From Dactylorhiza incarnata (Eukaryota > Streptophyta > Magnoliopsida > Asparagales > Orchidaceae): 64,000 nt of DNA. The translations under genes were made by a program, and so were the position numbers. The notes beneath the pieces are model-generated. The model ran no database searches and was not told the origin of the DNA. It saw only the letters and a list, made by a program, of their open reading frames with translations. The stretch is from NCBI GenBank assembly GCA_033032865.1, contig JAWHQI010000004.1:22054001-22118000 (forward strand), in the 5' to 3' direction. Position 1 is the stretch's first letter. The number at the start of each line of letters is the position of its first letter. Shown here piece by piece: positions 2,031 through 21,700 of the stretch.

Positions 2031-2855
2031 GGGGACGGGAAACGAGGAAACAGGGGCCGTCCGATCTCATCGTGGAGATCGGACGACCCCCGTTAAATAA
2101 CAGGCCTGCCGAAGATGGCAGTCGCTGCCACCGCCGGCGCTGCCCCCGGTCGACTCGCCCGGGGCCGGAGATCACACCGCCTGTAGTCCGGCGGCCTGGC
2201 ACCTCTGGCCACCGCCGGTTTTTAGGGGAGATGAATGTGCGGGGCGGTGGCGCGGCCTGCATGGGCCATTTAGGCCATGACCGCCCCCCCCCCCCCCCCC
2301 CCCGCGCTGGGAGGATCCTCCCCTGCCCCTGGCTGGTTCACCGGGGTTGGGGATTACCTCCACTGGTGGTCCGGCGTCCAGGCACCGTCGGGGGTGGCCG
2401 TCGTAGCGGTACAGGAAAAGACAGAGGGGGAGGGGGGGGGGGGGGTTTGCGTGTGCCGCCGGAGAAGCATTCTCCGGCGGCCCTGCCACCTCCCTTCGTC
2501 GGAGCAGAGGTCCCCGGGTGGGGACCTAATCCCCCAGCGCCACCACCGGCGCTGGGTTAAGGATTTCATGGACACGCCACCACCCGAGCCTGGACAAGGC
2601 TCGGGTGGCGCTGGTGGTGCTTCAGCGACGGGGGGGGGGGGGGGGGGGGAGCGCCCGACATGCTCCCGGGGAGTAGGGAAGGGGGAGGGGGAAGATGTCC
2701 ACCTAGAGATGGGGGCTCGGGAGGAGAGGGACCATCCGGACATGAAGGGGCGACGGTAATGGCTCGGGGAGAGGCTTCTCCGATAGGGTGGTGCTCGGGC
2801 AGGGAGGGGGAGGTGGCTGCGGAGGAGTGTTCAGCAAGGGGGGGGGGGGGGGGGG
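2019..2855. repeat. Cluster of long G/C homopolymer tracts
   Basis: Runs of 10 to 20 G (or C) occur near 2018-2034, 2283-2303, 2429-2446, 2630-2649 and 2839-2854. They are G-quadruplex candidates and slippage hotspots; exact lengths may be assembly-dependent. The homologous LTR copy has the same positions with different lengths. Confidence 0.8.
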
Positions 2856-3990
2856 TTGACCGAAGTCTTCCTATAGTGGGGCCCCTCATGTAGGTCAAGG
2901 TCGAAGGGGTCCACTAAGACTTACTGCAGTCGATTCAGAGTTCATGTGCTCCGTCTTTCATACGTTATGTCGTGGCGGTCTACAAAACCTAAAACGGACA
3001 TATTTCCCATATGACCTCAGATTGGAGTGCAACGAGTTCTGTGGTGCTCGTATTGGTCATACAAGTCTAACGGAACTGGAGAAAGTCAATTCAAAGTACG
3101 TCTGGTCACTATTCCACAATAATGTGGGTGTGATGTGCTACGACACCCAAAATGGTCGTTTTCCCTAAACAACCTCAGATCGGGGTGGAACGAATTCCGT
3201 TGCGCTCGTATCGGTCGTACAAGTCTAACAGAACTGACAGAAGTCGATTTGGAGTACGACTGGTCACTATTCCACAATAATGTGGTTGTGACGCGCTACG
3301 ACACTCAAAATGGTCATTTTCCCTAATCGACCTCGAATTGGGATGGAATGAATTCCGTTGCGCTTGTATCAGTTGTACGAGTCTAACTGAACAGACAAAA
3401 GTTGATTTGGAGTACGTCCGGTCATTATTCCACAATAATGTATGTTGTGACGCGCTACGACACTCAAAACGGTCATTTTCCCTAAACGACCTCGGATCGG
3501 GATGTAACGAATTCCATTGCGGTCGTATTGGTCGTATGAGTCTAACGGAACTAACAGAAGCCGATTTGGAGTACGTCTGGTCACTATTCCACAATAATGT
3601 GTTTGTGACGCGCTACGACACTCAAAATGGTCGTTTTCCTTAAACAACCTCCGATCGGGATGGAACGAATTTTGTTGCGCTCGTATTGGTCGTACAAGTC
3701 TAACGGAACTGACAGAAGACAATTTGGAGTACGTCTGGTCACTATTCCACAATAATGTGGTTGTGACACGCTACGACACTCAAAACAGTCATTTTCCCTA
3801 AACGACCTTGGATCGAGGTGGAACAAATTCCGTTGCGCTCGTATTGGTCCTACGAGTCTAACGGAACTGACATAAGTTGATTTGGAGTTTCCTAGCACAA
3901 TATCCCCTATTCGCGTAACTTTTTGTCTTTTGTGGTTACTTTTATTGGGTCCACTAGGATCTAGGGATACAATAAAAGTTGGGATGTTAC
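2031..3990. repeat. Gypsy-type LTR A1 (GC-rich part, tandem repeats and right end)
   Basis: From about 2062 this matches 4846-5212 joined to 16285-18124, i.e. a second copy of the same LTR interrupted by element 1. It has G/C homopolymer runs, a 158-bp tandem array, and ends GGGATGTTAC at 3981-3990, where the expected terminal A is lost. Proline- and glycine-rich open frames here are by-products of G/C runs. Confidence 0.6.
2940..3890. repeat. 158-bp tandem repeat array, about six units (copy 1)
   Basis: The anchor GTACGTCTGGTCACTATTCC or a close variant recurs at 3097, 3254, 3412, 3571 and 3729, spacings of 157-159 bp. Each unit also carries a GAACGAATTCCGTTGCGCTC-like segment and a TCTAACGGAACTGACAGAAG-like segment. 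The array sits in the right third of LTR A1 and is repeated in LTR A2 at 17078-18030. Confidence 0.9.
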
Positions 3991-4665
3991 TGAGGCTTCT
4001 AACCGCGACATCTTAGCCACGCTCACCAGGGTGACCAGGGAGGAGGAGGTATAAGAAGAGAAGACCCCTAAGAGAAGGAAGAAAGAAGAGCCCAGGAGGG
4101 CGAAGAAGAGGAAACCAGAGGAGAGGCGAAGAGAAGGAAGGAAGAGGGAGGACCCCAGCAAGGAAAATTAAAGAAGAAATGATGAGAGTAGACTCATCGT
4201 GGCTCCGGAGCGTCGGGAATATGAAAGGTGCTACCAGGTTCCCATTAACTGGCCGCCTTGGAGGCCAGCAGGACTGTTTCAGCGTCAGGGTCAGGGAAGG
4301 AGATCCCCGAGGTGAAGGGATTTCAACCAGCTGGAGAGGCGTCAAGGAAGAGGAAGGGAGGAAGCGATGGTGGTTGCCCGGCACGGCAACCGGCAAGGTC
4401 GGAAGAATCGGTAGAGGAGGCCGCAGGTGGAGGATATCCCCTTCTATTTTGACCTGCATCTGGTGTAGGGGCACGGGTCGATGGATTGCCCATATTTTTG
4501 GGAAGCCAGGAGGAGGTTGGCTGCAGGAGAAGCATGAGGAGAGAAGCAGAGGATAGAAACCCCCCGTCGAGCCATTGGCAGTGCAAGCCGTCGCTCAAAG
4601 GAGGAATGAAGATCAGGTCGACCATGGAGGTCGAGGAGACGTCGCCCAGGGAGGCTGAGGAGGAG
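3991..4665 (+). other. Non-pol internal module between two LTRs (copy 1)
   Basis: This ~675-bp segment lies between the right end of one LTR (..GGGATGTTAC) and the left end of the next (TGTAAGACCCC, 4666). It matches 18125-18797. On the plus strand a purine-rich reading would encode a highly charged Glu/Arg/Lys stretch (REEE..., RRKKEEPRR) followed by a less biased region, but it is broken by stops and I do not recognise the protein. It may be the internal region of a small non-autonomous element or a captured fragment. No PBS or polypurine tract is evident. Confidence 0.5.
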
Positions 4666-5212
4666 TGTAAGACCCCATTTTTTTCTCAAAAACCTGGGTC
4701 TTATGACCAGAACTGCCGCTTTGCGGTGACACCCTTGCTCTGGAAGGTCTCCACTACAAAACGCCGATCCTACCGGCCATATCGATCACAGTAGAAGAAA
4801 GAATATGATTGATTAATTAGAAATCAAGTCCACATCACATCTCATCGTGGAGATCAGACGACCCCCGTTAAATAACAGGGCTGCCGAAGATGGCGGTCGC
4901 TGCCACTGTCGGGCAGCGGTCCGCAGGCGTCGGCACAGCCCCCAATCGACTCGCTGGGGGCCGACGATCATGCCTGCTATGGTCTGGCGGCCTGGCGCCG
5001 CAGACCACCACCAATTTTTAGGGGAGAAGAGGGGGCTGGGCGGTGGCGCGGCCTGCATGGGCCATCAAGGCCATGGTCGCGCCACCCCCCCGCTGGGATA
5101 GCCCCCACTGCTGGGAGGGCCCTCCCCTGTCCCTGGCAAGTTCACCGAGGTTGGGGCTTTCCTCCGGTGGTGGTCCGGCGTCCAGCCGCCGCCGGCCGCC
5201 GCAGGGGGTGGC
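4666..5212. repeat. Gypsy-type LTR A2, left part
   Basis: Starts TGTAAGACCCCATTTTTTTC and follows the start of the chromovirus LTRs at 18798 and 29656 for about 180 bp (to CACATCACAT, 4845). It then switches to the GC-rich LTR A sequence (CTCATCGTGGAGATC...). Element 1 interrupts it after 5212; it resumes at 16285 and ends at 18124. The switch suggests a large internal deletion or recombination between LTR subtypes. Confidence 0.65.
5208..5212. other. Target-site duplication of element 1 (left), GTGGC
   Basis: GTGGC directly precedes TGTTGGATCG; the same 5 bases follow the other LTR at 16285-16289. The uninterrupted relative reads GGGGGTGGCCGTCGTAGCGG at about 2391, confirming the pre-insertion site. 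Confidence 0.92.
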
Positions 5213-6010
5213 TGTTGGATCGTATAGCGCCCTTAGAGGGGGGGGGGGGGGTGAATAAGGGTGTGTCTTAAAAATTAATTTTTACTTAGTAATTTTTTTT
5301 AGGGAGATTTTACTTTACTAAAGAAAAAATTACTTCTAAATACTTTCAAAAACAATGCAATTTTGGTATTAAACCAAAACACAAATTTTCTAAGATAAAG
5401 ATTATGCCACCAAATATGTGATTAAAGAAAAAGACTTAATTATATTAATCATGAAATTTGAGTACAATAAAAATGATCTTAACGATGCTTAAGATCAAGG
5501 CACAATTATATTCAAAATTTTTTTTACAATTTTGGTTTACCAATCCTTCTCCCAAGGATCGGAAGGCTATCGCTTGTCTCTCCCAAGACCAAGCCCAAGC
5601 CTATCCTCTAGATCTTCCCAAGATCTAGACGTAGCACACAAGGCCACGATTTCCCACCAAGCCACGCAAGGACTTGGACGCTCCGCACAAGGAAGCGATT
5701 TTCCCCTAAGCCGCGCAAGAACTTAGACGCCGCACGCAAGACGACGATTTCTCTACCAATACTAAATGAAAAGTATGTGAATGAAAATACAATATGAAAA
5801 GAACAACTCCCTAGAAAATCAGATCTCTGGAAGGATTGTTGAAGCCTCGAGATGATTGATGATGTAGAAGCGCGCCCGATCTCGTCTTCAATCTTCAATC
5901 CTTCTTTGCTCAAATGGGAGTTGAGGAGGTTCTAGAGCTCTCGGGTTCGTATGCACTCAGGAAGGGACTGGAATTCTCAAAAGCTTGGAATGCACGAACC
6001 AAAGGAACCA

Positions 6011-6066
6011 ATTTATAGAAATTCACTGTCGCCTGGGCGACAGTGACTGTCGGAATTTTCCGACAG
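6011..6066 (-). promoter_or_regulatory. LTR promoter module of element 1: two palindromes plus TATA box
   Basis: Read on the minus strand: CTGTCGGAAAATTCCGACAG (6066-6047), 3 nt, CTGTCGCCCAGGCGACAG (6043-6026), 8 nt, then TATAAAT (6017-6011). Both palindromes are perfect with 2-nt centres. The other LTR has the same module at 15793-15848. The same arrangement, with a 7-nt gap to TATA, occurs at the antisense gene promoter (7809-7865). TATA function is inferred from sequence only. Confidence 0.7.
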
Positions 6067-6360
6067 CGCTAAACTGCCGCTGGAGTGCTGTCGTGGGTGG
6101 AGTCGTGGGCAGTTGCTATAACCGTCGAGCTGTCGCCTGGGAGACATCGATGTCGGATTTCCGACAGTGCAAAACTGCCGGTCGTGGGTGGAGACGTGGG
6201 CAGTTGTTGTAACCGCCGAGCTGTCGCCTGGGCGACATCGCTGTCGGATTTCCGACAGCACAAAACTGCCTTTCGTCGATCTGCCGTGGAGGGAAGTAGT
6301 TGTAACTTCTCTGCTGTCGCCTGGGCGACAGTGGCTGTCGGAATTTTCCGACAGTGAAAT
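6067..6360. repeat. Further copies of the GTCGCC/GTCGGAA palindrome pair in LTR
   Basis: Three further pairs lie near 6130-6168, 6220-6261 and 6316-6354, for example CTGTCGCCTGGGCGACAG followed by CTGTCGGAATTTTCCGACAG at the last. Some carry CpG-to-TpG or other changes (GGGAGACATC). They are separated by a diverged spacer (AAACTGCCG..GTCGTGGG..TTGTAACC) of roughly 60 bp. The same series is present in the other LTR. Confidence 0.88.
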
Positions 6361-6502
6361 TTTCCCACATTCAATTTTAGCTCCCGCAGAAATGTGAACA
6401 TCTCATACCTGTTATCTGCACACCATTGATAAAAATAGAATCAAATACAAACGGGACTTTGTTATTATCAAACCGGAGGAGTGCGTAACGCATGCTCCAA
6501 CA

Positions 6503-6795
6503 ATCTCCCCCTTTTGATAATAACAAATCCGTATAAAAAGAAATCATGTCTATTTAGATTGTTGATTTTAACCTTTGGTGTGTGCACAAAATTAACATGA
6601 TATATATTTCTTGAAAATAATGATCTACCTTTAGATGAAAGCTCCCCCTAAATGAAAGCTCCCCCTACATATATGCTCCCCCTAAATATATGCTCCCCCT
6701 AAATATATGATGTATTGTGTAGGTGGAATATTTAGGTGTAATAGATTTGTGATTGTTCTTTTTATACTTTTAATTCTCCCCCTTTTGATATTAGC
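6503..6795 (-). other. Multiple polypurine tracts of element 1
   Basis: Read on the minus strand, the PPT next to the 3' LTR is TATCAAAAGGGGGAGAT (ending 6503). Upstream, AGGGGGAGC recurs four times with A/T-rich spacers between about 6647 and 6700, and AAAAGGGGGAG recurs near 6775. Tandem PPT-like tracts are a known trait of SIRE-like elements; here they would offer several plus-strand priming sites. Confidence 0.75.
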
Positions 6796-7808
6796 AAAAG
6801 TTAATATTAGATAAAAGAGTAGTTCTTGATGGAATGGACATAGGATATAGAAAGAAAGAGTAAGCGGAAGCACTTTAGGTGAAATAATAGGAATATGCCA
6901 TAGTATGAATAAACTCATGAAGTGACGGTATAGCCATATGAAGTAATGAAAGAAAATAACTTAAACATGAGTAAGATCATTTGAAAGTATCATAGAAAGA
7001 CACAATAGTGTATAGAATTATGGAATATTTTCGGTCCAATTCTCATGAGATGAATATTTATTTAACATAATGATGTGTACATGTGATACTTAGATCAAAC
7101 ATATGAAGCTATTTAATTTACATGATCATTGAAATGTAGAACATAATAAAAGCACATAAAGGCAACTTTGACTTTGAAGATATAGCACAAGATGAATAGA
7201 AAACCATGTTTCTTTTGCACAAGACACTTTACAATTCTGTCCAAGGTGCTTAACCTCACAATGCTCATTAAGACTTATCAGGAGGGTAAGTAGTGCTTGG
7301 TGGAGTATCCTTGTCTTTATTTTAATTTTTTTATCACAGATGTTGTGATATCTTAATTTTGATATATTGATATATTTTTTTTTAAATGACCAAGGATCTC
7401 CGAATTCACTTGAATCGCAAAAGATGGTGTATATTTTGTTGTGCTAACAAATCAAGGGTGAAAGTTGTATTTAAGAAGTGCTATTTTATTATGTTAAAGC
7501 AAATATGATCCATGTATATATTAAAGAAGTACACATATGTATTGATCAAAAGAAGTGAACGTGATAGTTCATTATGATAGATAAACAATTTCTCATACTT
7601 AGAGGCATGCGAAAACAATTTCCAATGGTCTAAACAACTAAGTAGAAGTGTCAATACGATGATAGCTTGGAAATGAAATCATATAAACATGTAAGTCATT
7701 TTTTTAAATAAATAGCACATGGTTTGTCATCAAGTCATGAGGTGAAGCATTAATAATGACATATAACTTTTGTGGGGACCCAACATTGATTTTTTAGTAC
7801 ATTTGGAG
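6796..7808. other. AT-rich spacer between PPT region and antisense gene
   Basis: About 1 kb, strongly A/T-rich, no ORF of note on either strand and no repeat that I can see. It would contain the 3' ends of both the sense transcript and regulatory sequence for the antisense gene. Confidence 0.5.
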
Positions 7809-7865
7809 CTGTCGGAAAATTCCGACACCCACTGTCGCCTGGGCGACAGCCAAAAGTATAAATAG
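7809..7865 (+). promoter_or_regulatory. Promoter of the antisense gene of element 1
   Basis: Plus strand: CTGTCGGAAAATTCCGACA (7809-7827), 4 nt, CTGTCGCCTGGGCGACAG (7832-7849), 7 nt, TATAAATAG (7857-7865). This reproduces the LTR promoter module in content, order and spacing, although it points the opposite way. Transcription would start around 7890. Confidence 0.72.
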
Positions 7866-7960
7866 GGCATCAGACCGAGTCAAACCCTATTGTGCTTCAT
7901 TTTTCTGGACTGTTGAGAGAGAGAGGGCTGTCGGAAATCGGCGACATCTCAAGATCTAAG

Positions 7961-8485
7961 GTATGGGAGTTTGCTTTTTATGGTTTTGACTCCAATGTTT
8001 TTGTTGGATTTTTGATTTTGAAAGTAAAGAAGAAGGAAAATGTAGTTTTCATGTTGATTTTTGATGAATGGTGTAGGTTTTTGAAGTTTAGTTTTTTTTA
8101 TTTAAAAAAAATGTAGATCTAGTTTAAAAACAAGTAGATCTTGTTGGATATTTGTGAAAATTTTTGATTTTGTGATTTTTGGGATGAAGGGCTCCATTTG
8201 TTCATTCTCTAAAGGGTTTTGGTAGATCTAGATTAGTGTATAGGGTTGAAGATGATGAATAGTAAAGAATTTGTAGAATATGTTGATTTGAAAAACATAA
8301 ATTTTTTTTTAAAAACGTGATGTTGAAATAACATTGATTTTGAGTAGATCTGGAAGGATATGTAAAAAATTTTGAGAGAAATCACTTGGTGAGCTGTCGG
8401 AAAATTCCGACACCCACTGTCGCCTGGGCGACAGTGTTCCAGTGCACAACACATGTTTGATCTAATTTTTTTTTGTTATTTGCAG
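7961..8485 (+). other. Predicted 5'-UTR intron of the antisense gene
   Basis: Donor AAG|GTATGG at 7960/7961 and acceptor TTGTTATTTGCAG at 8485, 525 bp, T-rich throughout as in plant introns. The acceptor is 1 nt upstream of ATGGCTTCC. A second copy of the palindrome pair (8394-8412 and 8417-8434) lies inside it. No transcript evidence is available. Confidence 0.6.
8394..8434. repeat. Palindrome pair, copy in antisense-gene intron
   Basis: CTGTCGGAAAATTCCGACA followed 4 nt later by CTGTCGCCTGGGCGACAG, identical in order and spacing to the promoter copy at 7809-7849. Confidence 0.92.
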
Positions 8486-8486
8486 A

Positions 8487-9603
8487 ATGGCTTCCAGTTC
8501 CAAAGCTCGAAAGAGTACTTCGGAAGATGCACGTAGTTCATATCAAGTTTTTCCTGGGGTGGAGTAGGCTATTGTTGGAATAGCGAAGTATGTGGAATTT
8601 GAGTCGCCAAAGCACGATCATATCTATGATCGGCTTGCGAACGCAGGTATAAATTCAATAATCACACCAGAGGGGTTTTCTTCCTTTTTCATTCGTGAAT
8701 TTTATAACCATTTGGAAGACCCAAATTTCACTGAATTGGATGGAGGAGTGAGATCAAGGATCCAAGGTCAATATGTGGAAATAACACATGTTGATCTACG
8801 AGAGGAATTTGGACTAGTGATGAGTGAGAATATGCCTGATATAGTGGAGAATTATCGAAAGGATAGAGATTGGACCCTTGTAAACATGAGTTTACATGGG
8901 AATCAAAAAAAAGACTCTTACCACTGAAGTTACGTCACTTACTCCGGATGCGTTCTTAGTCCAAGATATATTAAGGAATTCAGTGATGTTGAAGAGTGGA
9001 GACACAAGAAGTATTACGGCTCAGTTGACCCTCTTTACATACTATATTATGGAGGATGAGCTTTTTGATGTGGCTGACTTCATACTCTCTCAGATTAGGT
9101 ATGCGTATAGATTAAAGCATCCAAGATGGGTGAAGGTTCATACGCTGCCACTGGGGGTGGTAATACATCGTGTACTCTATAAGAAGTATGGATGGATAGT
9201 GCAAGGTGCTTATTTGGATGATTGTTATCCGGAAATATATTATACGGGTTCAATGAAGGTGAAGAAGCCGCAGAGAAAAGCTCATCCGGGGATTGAGATT
9301 AGAGAGCCGACCATTTCTAGGGCAGGATCACTACGAGAGTCCATTGATGATTTGCGTGATTCATTAGAGGATCACAAGAGGGAAGTGAAGAAGGACCGTA
9401 GTCGAATGCAGAAATTTATGAAGTTTCTCGTCAAGGGTCTGAAGTTAAAGCCAACTCCGGAGGAAGAGGCCAAATGGCAAGTTCCGGACGAAGAACCGCC
9501 ACGCGAATCGGTGAGGCGGACTCGCCGTGGTAAAGCCGTGAGACGAGGACCTCCAGAAGATTGTCCAGAGAGCAGCGGGGCTGGTTATGAAGATTCAGAG
9601 TAG
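8487..9603 (+). pseudogene. Antisense accessory gene of element 1 (putative plant transposon-protein family), degraded
   Basis: Runs opposite to gag-pol, between pol and the 3' LTR. I place the start at ATG 8487, one base after a splice acceptor. The reading is broken by TAG at 8565-8567 and by a frameshift in the A-run near 8906-8913, after which it continues to TAG at 9601-9603; length would be about 371 residues. The N-terminus is small and Ser/Lys-rich. The middle has FFIREFYNHLED and VEITHVDLREEFGL, which resembles the Pfam 'putative plant transposon protein' family (PF20167) from memory. Then come a mostly helical segment with DILRNSVMLKSG and a basic C-terminal patch (RRTRRGKAVRRG) that could be a nuclear localisation signal. 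It appears distantly related to the extra ORFs at 37981 and 46692. Function unknown; DNA binding is an inference. Confidence 0.65.
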
Positions 9604-9628: not shown

Positions 9629-9670
9629 GATGTCGGAAATTTCCGACATCCACTGTCGCCTGGGCGACAG
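9629..9670. repeat. Palindrome pair downstream of the antisense gene
   Basis: A 22-nt perfect palindrome with core GTCGGAAATTTCCGAC (9629-9650) followed 2 nt later by CTGTCGCCTGGGCGACAG (9653-9670). It sits just after the antisense stop codon, so the gene is bracketed by three copies of the pair. Confidence 0.92.
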
Positions 9671-9896: not shown

Positions 9897-12800
9897 TCAT
9901 TGTGAAATGTCTAGAATTCCCAATTCTAGCCTAAGCATAGAAAAACGGGAATCCGATAACGGCTTAGTGAATATATCCGCTAGTTGATTTTCCGTGCCTA
10001 TAAAGTTGATTTTTATATTACCCTTCTTAATATGATCCCTTATAAAATGATGTCGGACATCTATATGCTTAGATCTAGAATGTAATATGGGATTGTTAGT
10101 TAAGTCTATAACACTTTTTATTGTCACACTTTAATTCTACACTACTTTGTTGCATGCCAAAATCTTCTAATGTTTGTGACATCCAAAGAGCTTGGGCACA
10201 ACAACTACCTAGTGCAATATATTCGGCCTCGGTAGTTGAGAGGGCAACAGAATTCTGTTTCCCACTCGACCATGAAATAAGTGAAGGGTCGATAAAGTGA
10301 CAAGTGCCACTAGTGCTTTTCCTATTTAAGGAACATCCCGCATAATCCGAATCCGAAAAACCATGTAAAATAAAAGAATCATTATGAGGATACCATAAAC
10401 CTAATTTTGATGTGCCTATGAGATATCTAAAGATACGTTTCACCGCTTTTAAATGTGACTCTTTAGGATTAGCTTGAAATCTAGCACATAAACAAATGGC
10501 AAACATAATATCAGGTCTAGATGCGGTTAAATACAATAAAGACCCTATCATACTTCTATAAAGGGTTTGTTCAATTGAAACACCACTTTCATCTTTTCCT
10601 AATTTTAGTGAAGTACTCATAGGAGTGTTTGCATGCTTAAGGTTTTCAAATCCAAATCTTTTTAACATATCATGAATATATTTGGTTTGACATATAAAAA
10701 TTCCATCATGTTTTTGTGTAATTTGAAAACCTAGAAAATATGAAAGTTCTCCAACCATACTCATTTCAAATTCATTTTTCATAATTTGAACTACTTCATT
10801 ACACAACTCTTCATTAGTGGCTCCAAAAATAATATCATCAACATAAATTTGTAAAATAACTAAATCATGATCAATTTGCTTAATGAAGAGTGTAGAATCA
10901 GCACTTCCAATTTTATAATCGTGCTTTAACAAATATTGAGTTAATCGATCATACCAAGCACGAGGCGCTTGTTTTAATCCATAAAGCGCTTTATCTAACT
11001 TATAAACATAATTTGGATATTTCTCATTTATAAAGCCAGGGGGTTGTTCTAAATAAACTTCTTCTTTTATATACCCGTTTAAAAATGCGGTTTTGACATC
11101 CATTTGATATAATTTAAATCTTTTAAAACAAGCAAATGCAAGAAATATTCTAACCGCTTCTAATCTTGCTACAGGTGCAAAAGTTTCATCAAAATCTACC
11201 CCTTCAATTTGTGCATAACCTTTTGCAACTAATCTGGCTTTATTTCTAACAATTCTAGATTCATTATCCATTTTCTTTTTAAAAATCCACTTAACACCAA
11301 CTACAGGACGGTTTTTGGGTCGTTCTACAAGATTCCAAACCTTATTACGTTCAAATTGATTAAGTTCTTCATTCATAGCTAAAAACCAAAATTCATCATT
11401 TAAAGCGGTGGAAACATCTTTTGGTTCTATTTCACAAACAAAATAAAGGTTTGAAAATAAAACATGTAGTGATGAACGAGTACTAACCCCTTTTTGCGGA
11501 TCTCCAATGATAAGCTCCTTTGGATGATCCTTAGAGAATCTCAATTCACTTGGAGGCACATATCCTTCTCTTTCTTCTTCTTCTCTATCTTCTTCTCCTC
11601 TTTCTTCTTCTCTTTCTTCTTCTTTTTCTTCTTCATTTTCTCCAAGTTCTTCTTCATCATTCTCCACCGTGGGAAGGAGTTCATCTTCTTTTCCTGTAAT
11701 TTTCTTTTCTACACATGAAGCAAACTCATCAAACCTAACATGAATAGATTCTTCAACTATTTTTGTTCTTTTATTAAAAATTCTATAAGCTTTACTAGTT
11801 GAAGAATAGCCAATAAAAATACCTTCATCACATTTTTCATCAAATTTTCCTAAGGAATCTTTAGAATTCAAAATAAAACATTTACAACCAAAAACGTTGA
11901 AATAAGAAACATTTGGTTGTTTACTAAATATTAATTCATAAGGAGTTAATTTTAAAATAGGGCGAAGCATTACTCTATTAATTACATAACATGCCGTGCT
12001 AACCACTTCAGCCCAAAAAGATTTTGGTAATTTGAATTCAGATAACATTGTACGGGCTAACTCTTGAAGAGTTCTATTTTTCCTCTCCACTACACCATTT
12101 TGCTGTGGTGTGCGTGGAGCGGATAATTCATGTTTAATTCCTAACTCCGTACAAAAAGAAATAAACTTTTCATTTTCAAATTCTCCTCCATGATCCGATC
12201 GTATGCGTTTAATTTTTAACTCAAATTCATTTTGGATACGCAAACATAATTTTGAAAATTCTGAAAATGCTTCGGATTTGGAGGTTAGAAATAAAGTCCA
12301 ACAAAAACGAGAATAATCATCAATCAAAACAAATGTGTATTTTCTACCTCCTAAGCTAGAAATTCCAATTGGCCCAAATAAGTCCATATGTATTAATTGA
12401 AGTGGCCTAGTGGTAGAAATAATGTTTTTACTTTTGAAAGATGATTTTGAAAATTTTCCTTTTTGGCAAGGCACACATAGTGAAGAAGATAAATTTCCAT
12501 TTAGCGAAAGTAAACCTTTAATTAATTTATCTTTTGAAAGTTTTGAAATTAACTTGGCACTAGCATGTCCAAGTCGCCTATGCCATAAATCTAATTCATC
12601 ATTTTTTGATAGAAAACATTTCAAAGTAGAATTTGAAAAATCAAGAAATTTAATCATATATACATTATGACATCTAGGTGCGGTAAAAACAATTTCATTT
12701 GTTTTGGAATTAATAATTTTGCACAAATTTGTAGAAGATTCAAATAAAACATTTAAACCCTTATCACATAATTGACTAATATAAATCAAATTATGCTTTA

Positions 12801-13014
12801 ATCCTACTACAAATAAAACATTTGAAATTGAAAAATTTTCGTTACCCACAACACCGATGCCGATGATTTTTCCTTTTCCATTGTCACCGAATGTAACAAC
12901 TCCTCCTTTCTTCATCTCTAGGCTAAGGAACTTCTCTTTATTGCCCGTCATATGCTTTGAACAACCCGAGTCTAAGTACCACACGTCTTCTTTGTCCTTA
13001 GCCTGCCAACACAC
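9897..13014 (-). CDS. pol: Element 1 Ty1/copia pol polyprotein (PR-IN-RT-RH), one terminal frameshift
   Basis: A 972-residue open frame (13014-10096) in copia order. Protease with [10 protein letters not shown] around residue 15; GAG-pre-integrase with LWHRRLGH near 143; integrase core with MDLFGP near 210, RSDHGGEF near 272 and ERKNRTL near 313; reverse transcriptase with [19 protein letters not shown] and the catalytic YVDDIIFG near 722; RNase H with GFSDSDYAG and STTEAEY. After LKCDN a one-base indel near 10120 shifts the frame, and the rest ([30 protein letters not shown]) reads on to 9897. The frame is continuous upstream with gag through a single UAG. Apart from the late frameshift all catalytic motifs are present. 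Confidence 0.92.
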
Positions 13015-13017
13015 CTA
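13015..13017 (-). other. In-frame UAG between gag and pol of element 1
   Basis: Minus-strand codons read TTC-TAG-GTG-TGT-TGG; gag ends at TAG and pol continues in the same frame. The preceding run CTCTTCTTTCTAG|G also looks like a splice acceptor. Either readthrough or splicing could link gag to pol; neither is shown. Confidence 0.7.
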
Positions 13018-13279
13018 GAAAGAAGAGGTGAGTAAAGATCTGGTTACCCAAGTGGTTCCACCCATAGCAAAGGTAGAAGCCTTAGGCACCCAGATTTGTT
13101 TAATTTTAGTTTTTCCTTCCTTCCAGCAAGAGTCCATAGTGTGACCAAATCTATTGCATTTGGCACATGTAATGTATTTAGAGGAGTATAACTTCTCTGG
13201 ACTTTTACTGGATGAGGATGCAGTATTTGATATTTCATTAATTTTAGAATTTTTAAAAGTGAATTTTCTGGACTTTTCA

Positions 13280-13315
13280 CTGTCGCCGGCGACAGTGATT
13301 GTCGCCGGGCGACAG
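13280..13315. repeat. Palindrome motif inside gag coding sequence, element 1
   Basis: CTGTCGCCGGCGACAG (13280-13295, perfect) and TGTCGCCGGGCGACA (13300-13314) lie about 80 bp on the amino-terminal side of the second zinc knuckle. They are the same core as the LTR and antisense-promoter palindromes but lie in coding sequence. Confidence 0.85.
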
Positions 13316-14980
13316 CTTCCAGATGTGTATCCGAGCCCAAACCTTCCAGATCCATGGCGTTGGTATCCTAAGATCATATCCAGTGATCTTCGGCCCATTC
13401 CAAATTTTTTCATGGCTAGTGTTAAGTCATGAATCTGGTGTCTCATTTTTGTATTCTCGGATACTAGATTTACGCATCTCCGTTCAAAAGATTTCTTTCC
13501 CTCATGGACTATGGAAATTGAAGATTTCAGATCTCTCTCTAAAATCTCATTCTTTTTAGTAAGAACTTTTATTGTAGAATGAGATTTGGAAAGAGATTCT
13601 TCAAGTTCTTTAATTTTTCCCAAAGAGTGATCACACTCTTGGCAAGAAATATCTCTTTTTCCAATTGTCTTAATTTCCCTTAACAATTTTTTGTTTTCCT
13701 TAAGTAAAATGTCATTTTCAGATTTAAGAAGATCATTGTCTTTTAAGCTTTTTTCAAAAAATTTGCAAGTCTTTAAAAATTCAGAAAACAATTCATCATA
13801 GGTTGGAGGAGTTACCTCAGTGTCGCTTTGGACACTGCATTCGTCATCAGATATGATGCTCTTTCCCATTAAGCATATGTTTGCCTCCTCTTCTTTACTT
13901 GAGTCGGAACTGCTTGCATCCTCAGAAGTAGTATCATCCCAGGTTTCCGCCTTCAACACCTTCTTCGACCCTTTGTGCTTCTTTTCTTTAAGTTCTTTCA
14001 AGTACTTTGGACACTTGCTTCGAATGTGTCCTAACTTCTTGCAGTGATAGCACTCCGGTGGCGGTCTCTCTTCCTCCTCATCGCCTTCCTTTCCTTTTTT
14101 CTTCCTAAAGGTTTCCTTCTTAAAATACTTCTTAAACGAATTCCTTCTCTCCGGATTTTTCATAAAATTTCTAAATTTTTTAACAAATAAACTTTCCTCA
14201 TCTTCTTCATCCTCCTCAGAATCACTAGTTTCTTCCTTCTTTGATCTTAGAGCCAATCCCTTCTTCCTTGGCTCCATATACTCTTGTTGTTGAATTTTCA
14301 ATTCAACTTCATGAGTTTTCAAGTTCCCAATGAGGCTCTCCAATTGTAAGGTCTTAAGATCATGTGACTCGGAAATTGCAGTCACTTTAGGATTGAACTT
14401 CGGGGGAAGTGATCTTAAGATTTTCCTTACCAAATCTCCATTTGAGAACACCTTTCCTCGCACCTTTGAGTCGTTTACGATTTTTGTAAATCGTGTGTAC
14501 ATCGTATCAATCTCTTCATCTAACACCATTTTGAATCTTTCAAATTCAGATTCCAGTTGAAATAGCTTTGAGTCCTTTACCTGCGAAGTACCTTCATGAG
14601 TGATTTCTAATAAATTCCAAATTTCAAATGCAGAATTACAAGCACAAACTCTATTAAATTCAGTGCGATCTAGTGCGCAAAATAAAGCATTCATGGCTTT
14701 TGCATTGTTCTTACATCTTAATTTATCATTATCATCCCACTTATCTTTGGGCTTATCCATAGTTACATCTCCTAAACAATTGTTGGAGAAGTGTAACTAG
14801 ATTCTACCATATTCCAGACTTCTATATCTAGCGCAATTAGAAAACAACGCATACGTGTTTTCCAATAATTATAGTCTGTGCCCGTAAAAAGTGGTGGCCT
14901 ACTAATTCCTTGCCCCTCAACAAACGCGTGATCGTTGTGCGCCATTACTCCCGGTGGTAAAACCGTTTTGGAGTAACCTT

Positions 14981-14994: not shown

Positions 14995-16284
14995 TGTTGG
15001 ATCGTATAGCGCCCTTAGAGGGGGGTGGGGGGGTGAATAAGGGTGTGTCTTAAAAATTAATTTTTACTTAGTAATTTTTTTTTAGGGAGATTTTACTTTA
15101 CTAAAAAAAAATTACTTCTAAATACTTTCAAAAACAATGCAATTTTGGTATTAAACCAAAACACAAATTTTCTAAGATAAAGATTATGCCACCAAATATG
15201 TGATTAAAGAAAAAGACTTAATTATATTAATCATAAAATTTGAGTACAATAAAAATGATCTTAACGATGCTTAAGATCAAGGCACAATTATATTCAAAAA
15301 TTTTATTACAATTTTGGTTTACCAATCCTTCTCCCAAGGATCGGAAGGCTATCGCTTGTCTCTCCCAAGACCAAGCCCAAGCCTATCCTCTAGATCTTCC
15401 CAAGATCTAGACGTAGCACACAAGGCCACGATTTCCCACCAAGCCACGCAAGGACTTGGACGCTCCGCACAAGGAAGCGATTTTCCCCTAAGCCGCGCAA
15501 GAACTTAGACGCCGCACGCAAGACGACGATTTCTCTACCAATACTAAATGAAAAGTATGTGAATGAAAATACAATATGAAAAGAACAACTCCCTAGAAAA
15601 TCAAATCTCTGGAAGGATTGTTGAAGCCTCGAGATGATTGATGATGTAGAAGCGCGCCCGATCTCGTCTTCAATCTTCAATCCTTCTTTGCTCAAATGGG
15701 AGTTGAGGAGGTTCTGGAGCTCTCGGGTTCGTATGCACTCAGGAAGGGACTGGAATTCTCAAAAACTTGGAATGCACGAACCAAAGGAACCAATTTATAG
15801 AAATTCACTGTCGCCTGGGCGACAGTGACTGTCGGAATTTTCCGACAGCGCTAAACTGCCGCTGGAGTGCTGTCGTGGGTGGAGTCGTGGGCAGTTGCTG
15901 TAACCGTCGAGCTGTCGCCTGGGAGACATCGATGTCGGATTTCCGACAGTGCAAAACTGCCGGTCGTGGGTGGAGACGTGGGTAGTTGTTGTAACCGCCG
16001 AGCTGTCTCCTAGGCGACATCGCTGTCGGATTTCCGACAGCACAAAACTGCCTTTCGTCGATCTGCCGTGGAGGGAAGTAGTTGTAACTTCTCTGCTGTC
16101 GCCTGGGCGACAGTGGCTGTCGGAATTTTCCGACAGTGAAATTTTCCCACATTCAATTTTAGCTCCAGCAGAAATGTGAACATCTCATACATGTTATCTG
16201 CACACCATTGATAAAAATAGAATCAAATACAAACGGGACTTTGTTATTATCAAACCGGAGGAGTGCGAAACGCATGCTCCAATA
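14995..16284 (-). repeat. 5' LTR of element 1
   Basis: 1290 bp, matching 5213-6502. It carries the palindrome series at 15808-16137 and the minus-strand TATAAAT at 15799-15793. One palindrome copy has decayed relative to the other LTR (GTCTCCTAGGCGAC near 16005). Its plus-strand end reads CTCCAATA instead of CTCCAACA. Confidence 0.93.
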
Positions 16285-16504
16285 GTGGCCGTTGTAGCGG
16301 TACAGGAAAAGACAGAGGGGGATGGTGGGTTTGCGGGTGCCGCCGGAGACGCATTTTCCGGCGGCCCTGCCACCTCCCTTCATCGGAGCAGAGGTCCCCG
16401 AATGGGGACCTACTCCTCCAGCGCCACCACCGACGCTGGGTTGAGGCTTTCATGGCTACGCCACCACCTGAGCCTAGACAAGGCTCGGGTGGCGCTGGTG
16501 GTGC

Positions 16505-16773: not shown

Positions 16774-16995
16774 GGGGGTCCCTTTTATAGGGAAGGAGGG
16801 GGGCATCCCTCCCTTTTCCCTTATGTGGGACTAAAGGGAGGGTGGGTGTGGGGAGATATTTTCTCCCCCCTCCCTCCACTACCCTAGGGTGGGCTGCCCA
16901 CTCATGGCAACCCTCCTCTCATAGTGAGGAGGTGAATGGGACCTCCCCTTTAGGGTTGTTTCCAAAACTTGGGGGGGGGGGGGGGGGGGTTGACC
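16505..16995. repeat. Very long G tracts
   Basis: The run starting near 16728 is about 44 bases of G almost uninterrupted, and further runs occur near 16517, 16585 and 16970-16990. Candidate G-quadruplexes; copy lengths differ from the homologous LTR A1. Confidence 0.8.
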
Positions 16996-17077
16996 AAAGT
17001 CAACCTACGGTGGGGCCCCTCATGTAGGTCAAGGTCCAAGGGGTCCACTAAGACTTACTGCAGTCGATTCAGAGTTC

Positions 17078-18030
17078 ATGTGCTCCGTATTTCATACGTT
17101 ATGCCGTGGTGGTCTACAAAACCTAAAATGGACTTATTTCCCGAATGACCTCAGATTGGAGTGCAATGAGTTCCATGGCGCTTGTATTGGTCATACGAGT
17201 CTAACGGAACTGGCTAAAGTCAATTCGGAGTACGTCTGGTCACTATTCCACAATAATGTGGGTGTGACGCGCTACGACACCCAAAAGGGTGGTTTTCCCT
17301 AATCATCCTCAGATCGGGGTGGAACGAATTCCGTTGCGCTTGTATCGGTCGTACGAGTCTAACAAAACTGGCAGAAGTCGATTTGGAGTACGTCTGGTCA
17401 CTATTCCACAATAAGATGGTTGTGACGCGGTACGACACTCAAAACGGTCGTTTTCCCTAAATGACCTCGAATCGGGATGGAACGAATTTCCATTGCGCCT
17501 GTATCGGTTATACGAGTCTAATGGAACTGACAGAAGTTGATTTGGAGTACGTCTGGTCATTATTCCACAATAATGTGGTTGTGACACGCTACGACACTCA
17601 AAACGGTCATTTTCCCTAAACGACCTCGGATCGGGATGTAACGAATTACATTGCGGTCGTATTGGTCGTACGATTCTAACGGAACTAAAAGAAGCCGATT
17701 TGGAGTACGTCTGGTCACTATTCCACAATAATGTGGTTGTGACGCGCTACGACACTCAAAATGGTCGTTTTCCCTAAACGACCTTAGATCGGGATGGAAC
17801 AAATTCTGTTGCGCTCGTATTGGTCATAGAGTCTAACGAAACTGACAGAAGATGATTTGGAGTACGTCTGGTCACTATTCCACAATAATGTGGTTATGAC
17901 GCGCTACTACACTCAAAACGGTCGTTTTCCCTAAACGACCTTGGATCGGGGTGGAAAGAATTCCGTTGCGATCGTATTGGTCGTACGAGTCTAATGGAAC
18001 TGACAGAAGTTGATTTGGAGTTTCCTAGCG
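17078..18030. repeat. 158-bp tandem repeat array, about six units (copy 2)
   Basis: The anchor GTACGTCTGGTCACTATTCC recurs at 17230, 17388, 17547, 17705 and 17862, spacings 157-159 bp, as in the array at 2940-3890. Both arrays start from the same unique flank (GACTTACTGCAGTCGATTCA), so the array pre-dates the duplication of the LTR. Confidence 0.9.
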
Positions 18031-18124
18031 CAATATCCCCTATTCGGGTCACTTTTTGTCTTTTGTGGTTACTTTTATTGGGTCCACTAGGGTCTAGGGA
18101 CACAATAAAAGTCCGAATGTTACA

Positions 18125-18797
18125 TAGGCTTCTAACAGCGACATCTTAGCCAGGCTCACCAGGGTGACCAGGGAGGAGGAGGAAGAAGAAGAGAATACCC
18201 CTGAGAGAAGGAAGAAAGAAGAGCCCAGGAGGGCGGAGAAGAGGAAGCCGGAGGAGATACGAAGAGAAGGAAGGAAGAGGGAGGAGCCCAGGAAGGAAAA
18301 GCAAAGAAGAAAGGATGAGACGAGACTCATCGTGGCTCCAGAGCGTCGGGAAGAAGAAAGGCGCTACCAGGTTCCCATTTAACGGTCGCCTTGGAGGCCA
18401 GCAGGACGGTTTCAGCGTCAGGGTCAGGGAAGGATATCCCCGGGGAGAAGGGATTTCAACCAGCTGGAGAGGCGTCAAGGAAGAGGAAGGGAGGAAGCGA
18501 TGGCGGTTGCCCGACACGGCAACCGACAAGGTCAGAAGAATCGACAGAGGAGGCCCCAGGTGGAGGAGATCCCCCTCTATTTTGACCTGCATCAGGTGGA
18601 GGGGCACGGGACGATGGCTTGCCTAGATTTTTGTGAAGCCAGGTGGAGGTTGGCTGCAGGAGAAGCATGAGGAGAGAAGCGGAGGATAAAAACACCCATT
18701 GAGCCGCCGACAGTGCAAGCCGTCACTCGAAGGAGGAATGAAGATTGGGTCGACCATGGAGGTCGAGGAGACGTCGCCCATGGAGGCTTAAGAGGAG
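18125..18797 (+). other. Non-pol internal module between two LTRs (copy 2)
   Basis: Matches 3991-4665. A plus-strand frame from about 18140 to 18382 encodes a Glu/Arg-rich charged peptide (REEEEEEEN, RRKKEEPRR); after a stop it would continue with a less biased reading including PLYFDLHQVEGHG. I do not recognise it. It is bounded by GAATGTTACA on the left and TGTAAGA (18798) on the right. Confidence 0.5.
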
Positions 18798-21700
18798 TGT
18801 AAGATGAATTTTTTTTCTCCTTAAAAACCCGGGTATTATGCCCAGAACCGTCGCTTTGCGGTGAGACCCTCGCTCGGGAAGGTCTCCACTACAAAACGCC
18901 GATCCAGCTAGCCATATCGATCACATTAGATGAAAGAATACAACTGATAAATTAGAAATCAAGTCCACATCACATGAATGTAATATCTCAAAAATAGAAG
19001 AGGTCCACATGGAATAACTGAATAAAATGTACGGTAATAATAAAGGGCTAATGCCCTGTACATCAATTCATCACTGCAATTTCACTCGTGGAAGCAAAAA
19101 CTACTAAAGCTAAAAGACATTCACGGATCCTGTCATCGGTGCTCCCGTGCTAGACTGTCCCGCCTCCATCTGCACTGGCCTCTGGTGCTGCAGCATCTCC
19201 TCGATCCCCTAAAATGATAAGGTCCACCGACCCTTAGTCAAAAGACTATGCCAATCCACAACCCCTCCCCCGCTGACTCCTAGGCACCGTGCGGGAAGGA
19301 TGAAGCAGAGGGCATCAAGGGATATAATCAAAAGCAGGTGACAGTGAATCTAACTACGGAAGGGTCGATTGGTAAGCAATATATAATACAATGAGTAAGC
19401 AGTAGGAAGTAAAACAGTAGCATGTAAGCAACATTAATAGGTATAGCAGTAGTAAAGAAATGAAACCTTAATTTATAGGAATGCCCACACAAACCTATAG
19501 ACCAAGGGGTCGTTTAGCAGGGCCTATCGTATAAAAAGTCCCATAACCAATTTATACGATAGGGGTAGGGGTTGAAATGCAATGTTTATGCCATGTCATG
19601 CAAGGTATGCAGTTTAATGTTATGTTCATACAAGAGCAACTCACACACTACGACTCTATGCGCACATAGCCTTAGTTCCCCCTTTTTGGAGCTAGCAAAA
19701 CTCCCAGGATACTTCCGTAGTGGCAAACAGAAGCGGTGGGTTGGGCCTCGCCCACCTCTAGGTTGGTATCTGCACTACCTAACCGAGACCTATCGTACGC
19801 CTCAATGCTAAGAACATAACAATGGAGCTCCTGCGTACTCTTACTGGTTAGTCCACCAGACTTTTCTTTGGTAAAGTGTTAACCACACTTACCGAGCCAA
19901 AGTAATGACATCGGTGCGACGACCGTCGACACTAATGACCCACCACCTTATGCACATACAATAAGTCCTACTATATCCCGAGCCATAAGCTCTCCGGGCT
20001 AACCGGCCCGTCGTCATAACCTTCCGAGCCAACGGCTCGCCGGTCCAACTCGTCCGTACCAACAAGCTCCACTGAGTCACAGGCTCACCGGACTATCCAG
20101 TCCACTGCTACCACCACCGAGCCTACCGTTCGTAAAACCAAACCTAACTAGCCTCCATAACCATGGAGTGTAGGTGTGTGCATTATTAAGTTAATCTTGC
20201 ACCGCCATTTATTCCTACACTTTAGGGTTAACCATGGATTTCCTGAGGACAACCCTGTGAGGGGCTCACTATGGCACTAGGAGCTACAATGGGATGACAC
20301 CCCAAAGCTCCCTTTCCAAGGTACTTAGTATTATTAGTGACTACTCACAAGTACACTCTCCTTGTCATTACATTTCGATTACCCTAAGTAATTTATTACC
20401 CTCTACGGGGAAAGACGATCTTTCGTCGGTCCCGAAGACAACCCTACTCCTTAGCTTATCGGGTACGCCCAACATATAGAGACCCTAATGGTGACCTCAC
20501 ATCTTCTCTAATAGACTAGGTACACTATCTACCTTCCATGCCCACCTAATGATCCATAAATTACTCAAGTTTTACAGTTTTACTATACGCAGACCAAATG
20601 AGTATATGAGTTGCATAAGGGGAGGTACCCTAAATATTCATCCAACTGACTCAAGATTATTACTGGGATTCCATCATGATATTCTAAGTCTAAATCCAGA
20701 GGATCATATATTTTCTTATTTAATTGGCATTTATTATAATTTTCCTCAACAATGACCAAGTATGAAATTGAACATGAAGTATTAAATCTTCTTATGATAT
20801 GGCCCCCATAAAATTATATAAAATCTATGAAGTCAAAATAACAGCAAATACATAATATCAAAATTTTGCAGTAAGGGGTTGGCCTCTGATTATAATATTG
20901 AACAATTACCCCAAATTAGAATTTAAAGAAGGAACGACCAAAACTACTTGTCTAAAAATTATGGGAAAATTACCAGACCTTCATACTAATCAGAAAAGTC
21001 TACTGGCCAAATTTCAGAATTTATCAAGACTAATTATTCACATAAATAAATATTCCAAGTAAAACTATATTAGGGGAAATTGTGAAGGAACCTACTGAAA
21101 AATAATTCCAAAAAATATACAAAAATTCAGAGAGCTCTATAATGCCCTAAATTGTCCTACCACCATGTTTCATAATTTTCCAGAGGATATTTCACCCTTA
21201 ATTATTTACTATATTCTTAATACCAAATAGATGACTTGTGAATGAAGTGCAAATTAAATTAATTCAATAATTGCACAAAAATTACCAGAGACCTAATACA
21301 TGATTATGATGGTACCACCAAATTTTCACCACTATCCAAGGTTATTTGAGCCTATAAATTCCTCTTATAAGGAGGTTCCCAAAAATGGTTATTACCTAAA
21401 TCAGAGGGGATAAGTTTTCCTAAAAGTCTTATAAATTTTCCTAGCGAATATTTACACTCCATGAACTTATCTACCAAGTTTCATGACCATCCAAGGAGAT
21501 ATGCCCCCTATGTCCTTCACAAGGCTTAAAGTGCAACCTAAGGTAAAAACTAGGGTCCTAGGGCATATCCACCCCACACCACCCCAAATTAATCATGGGG
21601 GTTTCTTAAGTGATCCTAAACTAGTGGCCAAAGTTTCACACCACTTGGATGAGATTTGGCCACCTAATTCCATCATGTGCACTTTTAACCTAGTTTGACC

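Follow-up and report, generated by a model that had tools for sequence, protein, structure and literature searches.

The 64,000-nt stretch of DNA analysed here (the window) contains a complete Ty1/copia retrotransposon of 11,072 bp on the minus strand, which we call element 1. Its two long terminal repeats (LTRs), each of 1,290 bp, occupy positions 5213-6502 (3' LTR, minus strand) and 14995-16284 (5' LTR, minus strand) and differ by 15 substitutions over 1,289 aligned columns. A 5-bp target site duplication, GTGGC, flanks the element at 5208-5212 and 16285-16289. The gag reading frame (13015-14760, minus strand) encodes a copia-type Gag with a zinc knuckle, and the pol reading frame (10096-13014, minus strand) encodes integrase and RVT_2 domains. 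The order Retrotran_gag_2, rve, RVT_2 places integrase before reverse transcriptase, as in copia-type elements, an assignment made from domain order. Six polypurine tracts, AGGGGGAG, lie at 6505-6783 on the minus strand, none further than 281 nt from the 3' LTR; the terminal tract starts 10 bp upstream of the LTR. A tract of this sequence at that distance from the 3' LTR, with several copies nearby, is a Sirevirus hallmark (PMC2829016; this and the other published sources are cited from excerpts). By these sequence features, element 1 is a Sirevirus (SIRE lineage, Ty1/copia) carrying an antisense accessory gene. Repeats at 2838-4840 and 16972-18975, with 90.8% identity along 2 kb, flank element 1 on either side, as if it were nested in another element.

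The accessory gene lies between pol and the 3' LTR on the strand opposite to element 1. Its coding part runs from an ATG at 8487 to 9602 (plus strand) and is preceded by a predicted intron at 7961-8485 (plus strand; AAG/GTATGG ... TTTGCAG/A). The window copy of the gene is broken by a TAG at 8565-8567 and by a frame change before 8925, and other copies in the host genome were examined in two sets. One comprises 29 copies, the top protein-similarity matches of 150 scored from 8,091 first-look candidates; its per-copy counts leave out L029, which is the window itself. The other comprises 12 copies drawn from places with a perfect copy of palindrome B (see below), so that only palindrome A was free to vary; it derives from 20 stretches and omits L018 and L019, which have lost the antisense gene, and L023-L028, which are other elements or a short piece. 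The intron donor region is conserved at 83 of 84 bases in the 12 copies. Among the 29, the open reading frame is exactly 371 aa long in 17, longer in 7 and shorter in 5. Over the codons of 8896-9600, dN/dS is 0.19 in the 12 copies, which were not chosen by protein, and 0.064 in the 29 protein-chosen copies, a value biased low by that choice. Judged from these substitution ratios, the gene is under purifying selection, and as an antisense reading frame between pol and the 3' LTR that is kept in copies under constraint it has the properties of an aORF-3R. The natural reading frame of copy L041 matches the Transposase_32 domain (PF20167) over residues 61-213 at 30.3 bits (E 4.6e-7); this is below the Pfam cut-off of 45 bits, so that the protein would be a distant relative only. 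A basic, arginine-rich tail can be seen in the sequence, and no DNA-binding domain was recognised either in Pfam or in a PDB sequence search with the L041 reading frame (best E 1.7). The open 235-aa piece of the window copy gave 264 candidates in a protein database, none with E <= 0.001, and its single-sequence structure model was useless (pLDDT 40).

Element 1 carries recurring palindromes of two types. Palindrome A is TGTCGG-N6-CCGACA, with an N4 core in the middle LTR pairs (short-core A), and palindrome B is TGTCGC-N4-GCGACA. At the LTR promoter, on the minus strand, A (6066-6047) is followed after 3 nt by B (6043-6026) and, 8 nt further on, by TATAAAT (6017-6011). At the antisense promoter, on the plus strand, A (7809-7827) is followed after 4 nt by B (7832-7849) and, 7 nt further on, by TATAAAT (7857-7863). 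The centres of A and B are 22 bp apart at both. This common layout, A, 3-4 nt, B, 7-8 nt, TATAAAT, is the core of the original prediction, and its coordinates are confirmed. The palindromes had been described as perfect; their arms do pair fully, but two central bases are unpaired in A (AA) and in B (TG). Of the order and orientation said to be shared, the order A then B stands, whereas the TG centre of B does not turn with the promoter.

The layout had been presented as a property of two promoters, and it extends well beyond them. Upstream of the TATA-proximal pair (6026-6066, minus strand), the 3' LTR holds three further pairs on the same strand: a B with one half-site change and a short-core A at 6130-6167, a B and a short-core A at 6221-6258 (centres 20 bp apart in both pairs), and a B and an A at 6314-6354 (centres 22 bp apart). 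The eight boxes of these four pairs lie 9-337 bp upstream of the TATA box. Four pairs are likewise found in the 5' LTR (15808-15848, 15912-15949, 16003-16040 and 16096-16136, minus strand), with one half-site change in the B at 15912 and in that at 16003, so that three middle-pair B boxes (6130, 15912 and 16003) each carry one such change. A constant centre spacing of two helical turns (21-22 bp) was considered and rejected: it is true at both promoters, and the middle LTR pairs are at 20 bp. On the plus strand, the antisense promoter is followed by a single hybrid palindrome, half A and half B, in the putative 5' UTR (7929-7946), by an intronic pair (8394-8434) with a 44-nt context identical to that of the promoter pair, and by a pair in the 3' UTR (9630-9670) with LTR-like downstream letters that lack the TATA. 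A further pair lies on the minus strand in frame within gag (13281-13314), where it encodes part of SCRPATITVAGDS. Six of the eight pair positions in element 1 do not adjoin a TATA box.

Sites of the exact form TGTCG-N3..10-CGACA number 22 in the 11,072 bp of element 1 and 0 in the remaining 52,928 bp of the window, a distribution that excludes a chance origin of the palindrome pairs. The same pattern occurred on average 0.02 times, and at most 2 times, in 500 Markov versions of element 1. When up to 3 mismatches are allowed, A matches the window 14 times (7 places on both strands) against 0.01 expected, and B 11 times against 0.04 expected. The likeness of the two promoters is beyond chance, as had been claimed.

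Their supposed independence fares differently. The linker GTCAC and the letters GTGAA after B are present in 17 of 20 sampled LTR promoters and in the most frequent class among antisense promoters (10 of 26), and they mark both promoters as copies of one module, although the window's own antisense promoter has neither. Because these letters are shared, the 3' UTR copy is LTR-like, and the window's intron pair repeats its promoter pair letter for letter over 44 nt, the promoters probably gained the module by copying. Given this apparent common descent, resemblance alone is no proof of common control; copying would explain the likeness of the modules, and their later upkeep suggests use. In L018 and L019, which lack the antisense gene, the sequence is joined where the promoter and 3' UTR modules lie, as if the gene had been lost by direct-repeat recombination.

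The host genome (3.27 Gb) contains 10,437 exact B boxes with the TG centre, both strands counted, and 60,943 sites of the form TGTCGS-N4..6-SCGACA against 12,997 for the backward control. A TATAAA lies within 30 nt of 3,169 exact B boxes, compared with 0 for the backward control; among 100 listed of the 3,169, the gap is 8 nt in 54, 7 nt in 42 and 9 nt in 4. We sampled LTRs as 20 of the 40 matches listed for a module-free stretch on the U5 side, with up to 2 mismatches allowed per box, and in all 20 a B-A pair adjoins the TATA with a gap of 8 and centres 22 bp apart. Among the 29 antisense genes, A is found in 27, B in 27 and both in 26 (up to 2 mismatches); the A-B distance is 22 in each of those 26, and B lies 7 nt from TATAAA in all 27 that have B. 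The alignment of other copies that had been proposed as a check thus upholds the module and its TATA distance, and the copies lacking it at one promoter that were sought as a refutation form no such pattern: the exceptions are L034, which lacks B, L054, which lacks A, and L050, which lacks promoter palindromes. The hybrid palindrome at 7929 has intact half-sites in 28 of the 29.

Conservation within the module is uneven. In the 12 copies, the half-sites of the antisense-promoter A are identical to the window at 143 of 144 positions and the TATA box at 83 of 84; identity drops to 60 of 72 in the A core, 31 of 48 in the linker, and 447 of 588 (76%) and 520 of 755 (69%) in the flanks. Because the window itself has less common variants of the A core and the linker, the values for these two are lowered. 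Mean pairwise identity among the 29 copies and the window reaches 0.94 in the promoter half-sites (0.935 in A and 0.945 in B); it is 0.88 in the A core, 0.75 in the linker, 0.77 between B and TATA and 0.88 across 7701-7808. The intron stands at 0.85, with its half-sites at 0.96 and 0.99. Palindrome-free stretches are kept equally well or better: 7269-7309 is at 1.00 in the 12 copies, 14 of the 15 best 41-bp windows in that set contain no palindrome, and 7600-7700 is at 0.94 among the 29 copies and the window, like the promoter half-sites. The module is thus an island of conservation relative to its near surroundings and not the best-kept sequence of element 1. Copies of the module exist, its TATA geometry is fixed in the samples, and its half-sites have changed less than the letters next to them. 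The interval between the 3' LTR and the antisense promoter (6520-7800) has no palindromes and no long reading frame in the window copy; it is strongly kept, at 92% identity to the window among the 12 copies, with some 41-bp windows at 99-100%.

Drift thus affects cores, linkers and flanks, and the halves TGTCG and CGACA are kept. Both halves are intact in 507 of 588 near-sites; one half is changed in 72 and both are changed in 9. One of these nine two-sided changes is a matched compensation of the kind expected in the stem of an RNA hairpin, and a few of the nine resemble chance sites. The inner G-G of the hybrid palindrome cannot pair, yet the site is conserved. Because 507 of the 588 near-sites keep both halves and one in nine two-sided changes is compensatory, the pattern fits a putative protein reading half-sites better than it fits an RNA stem. 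Linkers are nearly constant, at 4-5 bp in 143 of 146 half-site neighbours no more than 14 bp apart. Spacing within palindromes is 4-8 bp in 317 of 321, and such variable inner spacing is awkward for a rigid dimer.

Palindrome types also switch at fixed positions. In the subfamily L024-L027, the LTR keeps the TATA and the adjoining pair, as A-A and not B-A, with 2 mismatches in one A of this pair in L024. A tblastn search at 1e-4 found no match to the pol or the antisense protein of element 1 in L024-L027. These elements are probably non-autonomous, with a gag-like frame of 531-537 aa and a plus-strand frame of 152-157 aa, the latter without a Pfam match in L024; the LTRs of L024 and L025 are 87-88% like that of element 1 over the part compared. 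The gag pair consists of two B-like boxes in copies of the window type and of A plus a hybrid, at the same place and in frame, in a second type, the two gag types having 66-68% DNA identity. Twelve stretches were surveyed, of which 11 have gag (L087 does not), and the pair is present in all 11, with both boxes intact in 7 and one change in one box in 4. As L079 was chosen for its palindromes and the other 10 by position, the fair count is 10 of 10, in copies known for B boxes elsewhere. At third bases within the pair, 5 of 7 aligned shared codons match, against a background of 63-67% (six copies of the second gag type). Similar boxes occur in other arrangements: L028 has five B boxes 21 bp apart, and L023, a Ty3/gypsy element by its domains, has TGTCG..CGACA palindromes in its LTRs that start 19-21 bp apart. 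In maize, a palindrome of Copia LTRs is also the top Helitron motif, an instance of sharing across superfamilies (PMC10760457).

Retention of the half-sites amid drifting cores, linkers and flanks, together with palindrome types that swap at fixed positions, would fit a dimeric DNA-binding factor. We favour, with a probability of about 0.6, a reading in which a Sirevirus-type box pair was copied from one ancestral unit and a dimeric factor acts on both promoters. The ancestral unit (A, a short linker and B) would have been copied to the LTR promoter, the antisense promoter and other sites; a dimeric, sequence-specific factor would read the TGTCG/CGACA half-sites and act at both promoters; and the genomic and accessory transcripts would be switched together by this common factor. 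The sites in gag, the intron and the 3' UTR suggest that the factor may also mark the body of the element, for example by keeping chromatin open.

Two alternatives would dispense with such a factor. The module may have spread by duplication or gene conversion and owe its apparent conservation to the young age of its copies, with no shared control behind it. The 44-nt identity of the promoter and intron pairs, the shared GTCAC and GTGAA letters, and the presence of other stretches that are equally conserved agree with this; within one set of copies, however, half-sites are better kept than linkers, cores and near flanks, and types switch at fixed positions with the geometry unchanged, and we consider the absence of shared control very unlikely. 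A role as nucleic-acid structure, whether as RNA hairpins (for packaging, or as small-RNA hotspots) or as cruciforms, has been proposed for LTR palindromes in Sireviruses of maize; it would accord with the palindrome regions of those elements, which are small-RNA hotspots (PMC5311732, PMC10760457), with loop-like cores of varying length and with the pair in the gag of the genomic RNA. It sits poorly with the retention of the half-site letters and not of pairing alone, with the scarcity of compensatory changes noted above, with the conserved hybrid and its inner mismatch, and with a TATA distance that is fixed on both strands, and we regard it as unlikely.

If a protein reads the half-sites, the antisense protein itself might be the factor, a self-encoded regulator of its own gene and of the LTR that, like VANC of VANDAL21, would activate members of the family or protect them from silencing. 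Its gene is under purifying selection (dN/dS 0.19, or 0.064 in the protein-chosen set) and open for at least 371 aa in 24 of the 29 copies; its tail is basic; palindromes are present in the gene's own promoter, intron and UTRs, much as VANC motifs are in the non-coding parts and introns of VANDAL21 (PMC5735166); and a 3' ORF of sunflower Athila, partially similar to the same Transposase_32 domain, is predicted to be nuclear (PMC11728184). Against this identification, which we think improbable, no DNA-binding domain is recognised, one pair lies in gag coding sequence, and palindromes are carried by L024-L027, where the gene was not found, and by the gypsy element, although action in trans could explain their presence in those elements. 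A fuller version, in which the protein reads the pairs at its own and the LTR promoter and throughout the element, including gag, and activates or de-silences all copies in trans, parasitic ones without the gene included, is quite doubtful; if true, an LTR retrotransposon would possess a system of the VANC or Tat kind. Since the palindromes also occur in elements where the gene was not found and in a Ty3/gypsy element, a host factor would be at least as likely a reader as the antisense protein, and we slightly prefer a host transcription factor. Among host proteins, an auxin response factor (ARF) comes to mind: its best half-site is TGTCGG, the sequence of the A halves, which are arranged in inverted pairs as in auxin response element inverted repeats; ARF dimers bind inverted pairs, and AtARF5 tolerates spacings of 5-9 (PMC10690724). 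By the counting used there, however, long A has a spacing of 6, short A and B have 4, and the boxes of the window's gag pair have 2-3. The ARF5 range takes in long A and the hybrid alone, and the preferred spacing of 7/8 (PMC10690724) is absent from element 1, where spacings run from 2 to 6. The half-sites conform to TGTCNN, but those of B are TGTCGC, and we judge an ARF highly improbable as the factor.

The box pair and an antisense gene meet in one element, with the same pair at nearly the same distance from a TATA on opposite strands, which provides a testable geometry; the half-site rule offers a well-defined probe with which the factor could be sought; and action in trans has a natural test in relatives that lack the antisense gene. 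The functions of both the Sirevirus palindrome boxes and antisense accessory genes are called open in the excerpts cited (PMC2829016, PMC7264820).

Several published systems can be set beside element 1. To our knowledge, the VANC system is the closest known analogue of a self-encoded reader of repeated motifs. As in VANDAL21, a short motif is repeated in non-coding parts (upstream and in introns) of a transposable element family with an accessory protein (PMC5735166). Unlike element 1, VANDAL belongs to the DNA transposons and has a non-palindromic motif, and binding and demethylation have been shown in VANDAL21 (PMC5735166, PMC10398659).

Sireviruses have palindromic RM boxes upstream of the LTR TATA, with extra boxes upstream of an ENV-like gene, where an internal promoter was suspected and, in the excerpt cited, not conclusively identified (Bousios 2010; PMC2829016). 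Element 1 likewise has many palindromic boxes upstream of its LTR TATA and extra boxes 5' of its accessory gene (7809-7849 and 7929), besides those in the intron, the 3' UTR and gag. The Usier box GTCGGACGTCCGAC shares the half-site and the 4-bp core length with the short A of element 1 (PMC2829016). The CGG-CCG core of RM boxes is present in A (TGTCGG..CCGACA) and absent from B (TGTCGC..GCGACA). Unlike RM boxes, those of element 1 are paired and of two types, and include a pair in gag. The ENV-like genes in the 2010 work of Bousios are, by our reading, in sense orientation; the accessory gene of element 1 differs from that case in being antisense, in its predicted intron and in having a TATA of its own, 7 nt from B. 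New relative to the published RM boxes are the antisense, intron-containing gene with its own TATA at a fixed distance, the gag-embedded pair and the half-site rule; a literature search restricted to open-licence papers brought up no account of a Sirevirus with an antisense gene and such boxes.

Grande and RIRE2, which carry antisense genes, are Ty3/gypsy families. Like gene23 of Grande and the aORFs of RIRE2 and Retand, the gene of element 1 lies between pol and the 3' LTR in antisense orientation and is conserved across copies (PMC7264820, PMC11963269). Unlike these Ty3/gypsy elements, element 1 is a Sirevirus, and its accessory protein has a distant Transposase_32 domain. Grande gene23 has its own promoter and a nuclear product (PMC7264820), and the antisense reading frames of Retand mostly encode TRP28 (PMC11963269). 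SIRE elements have been noted for eORF-3'F (74%), in which we read F as forward (PMC6317226).
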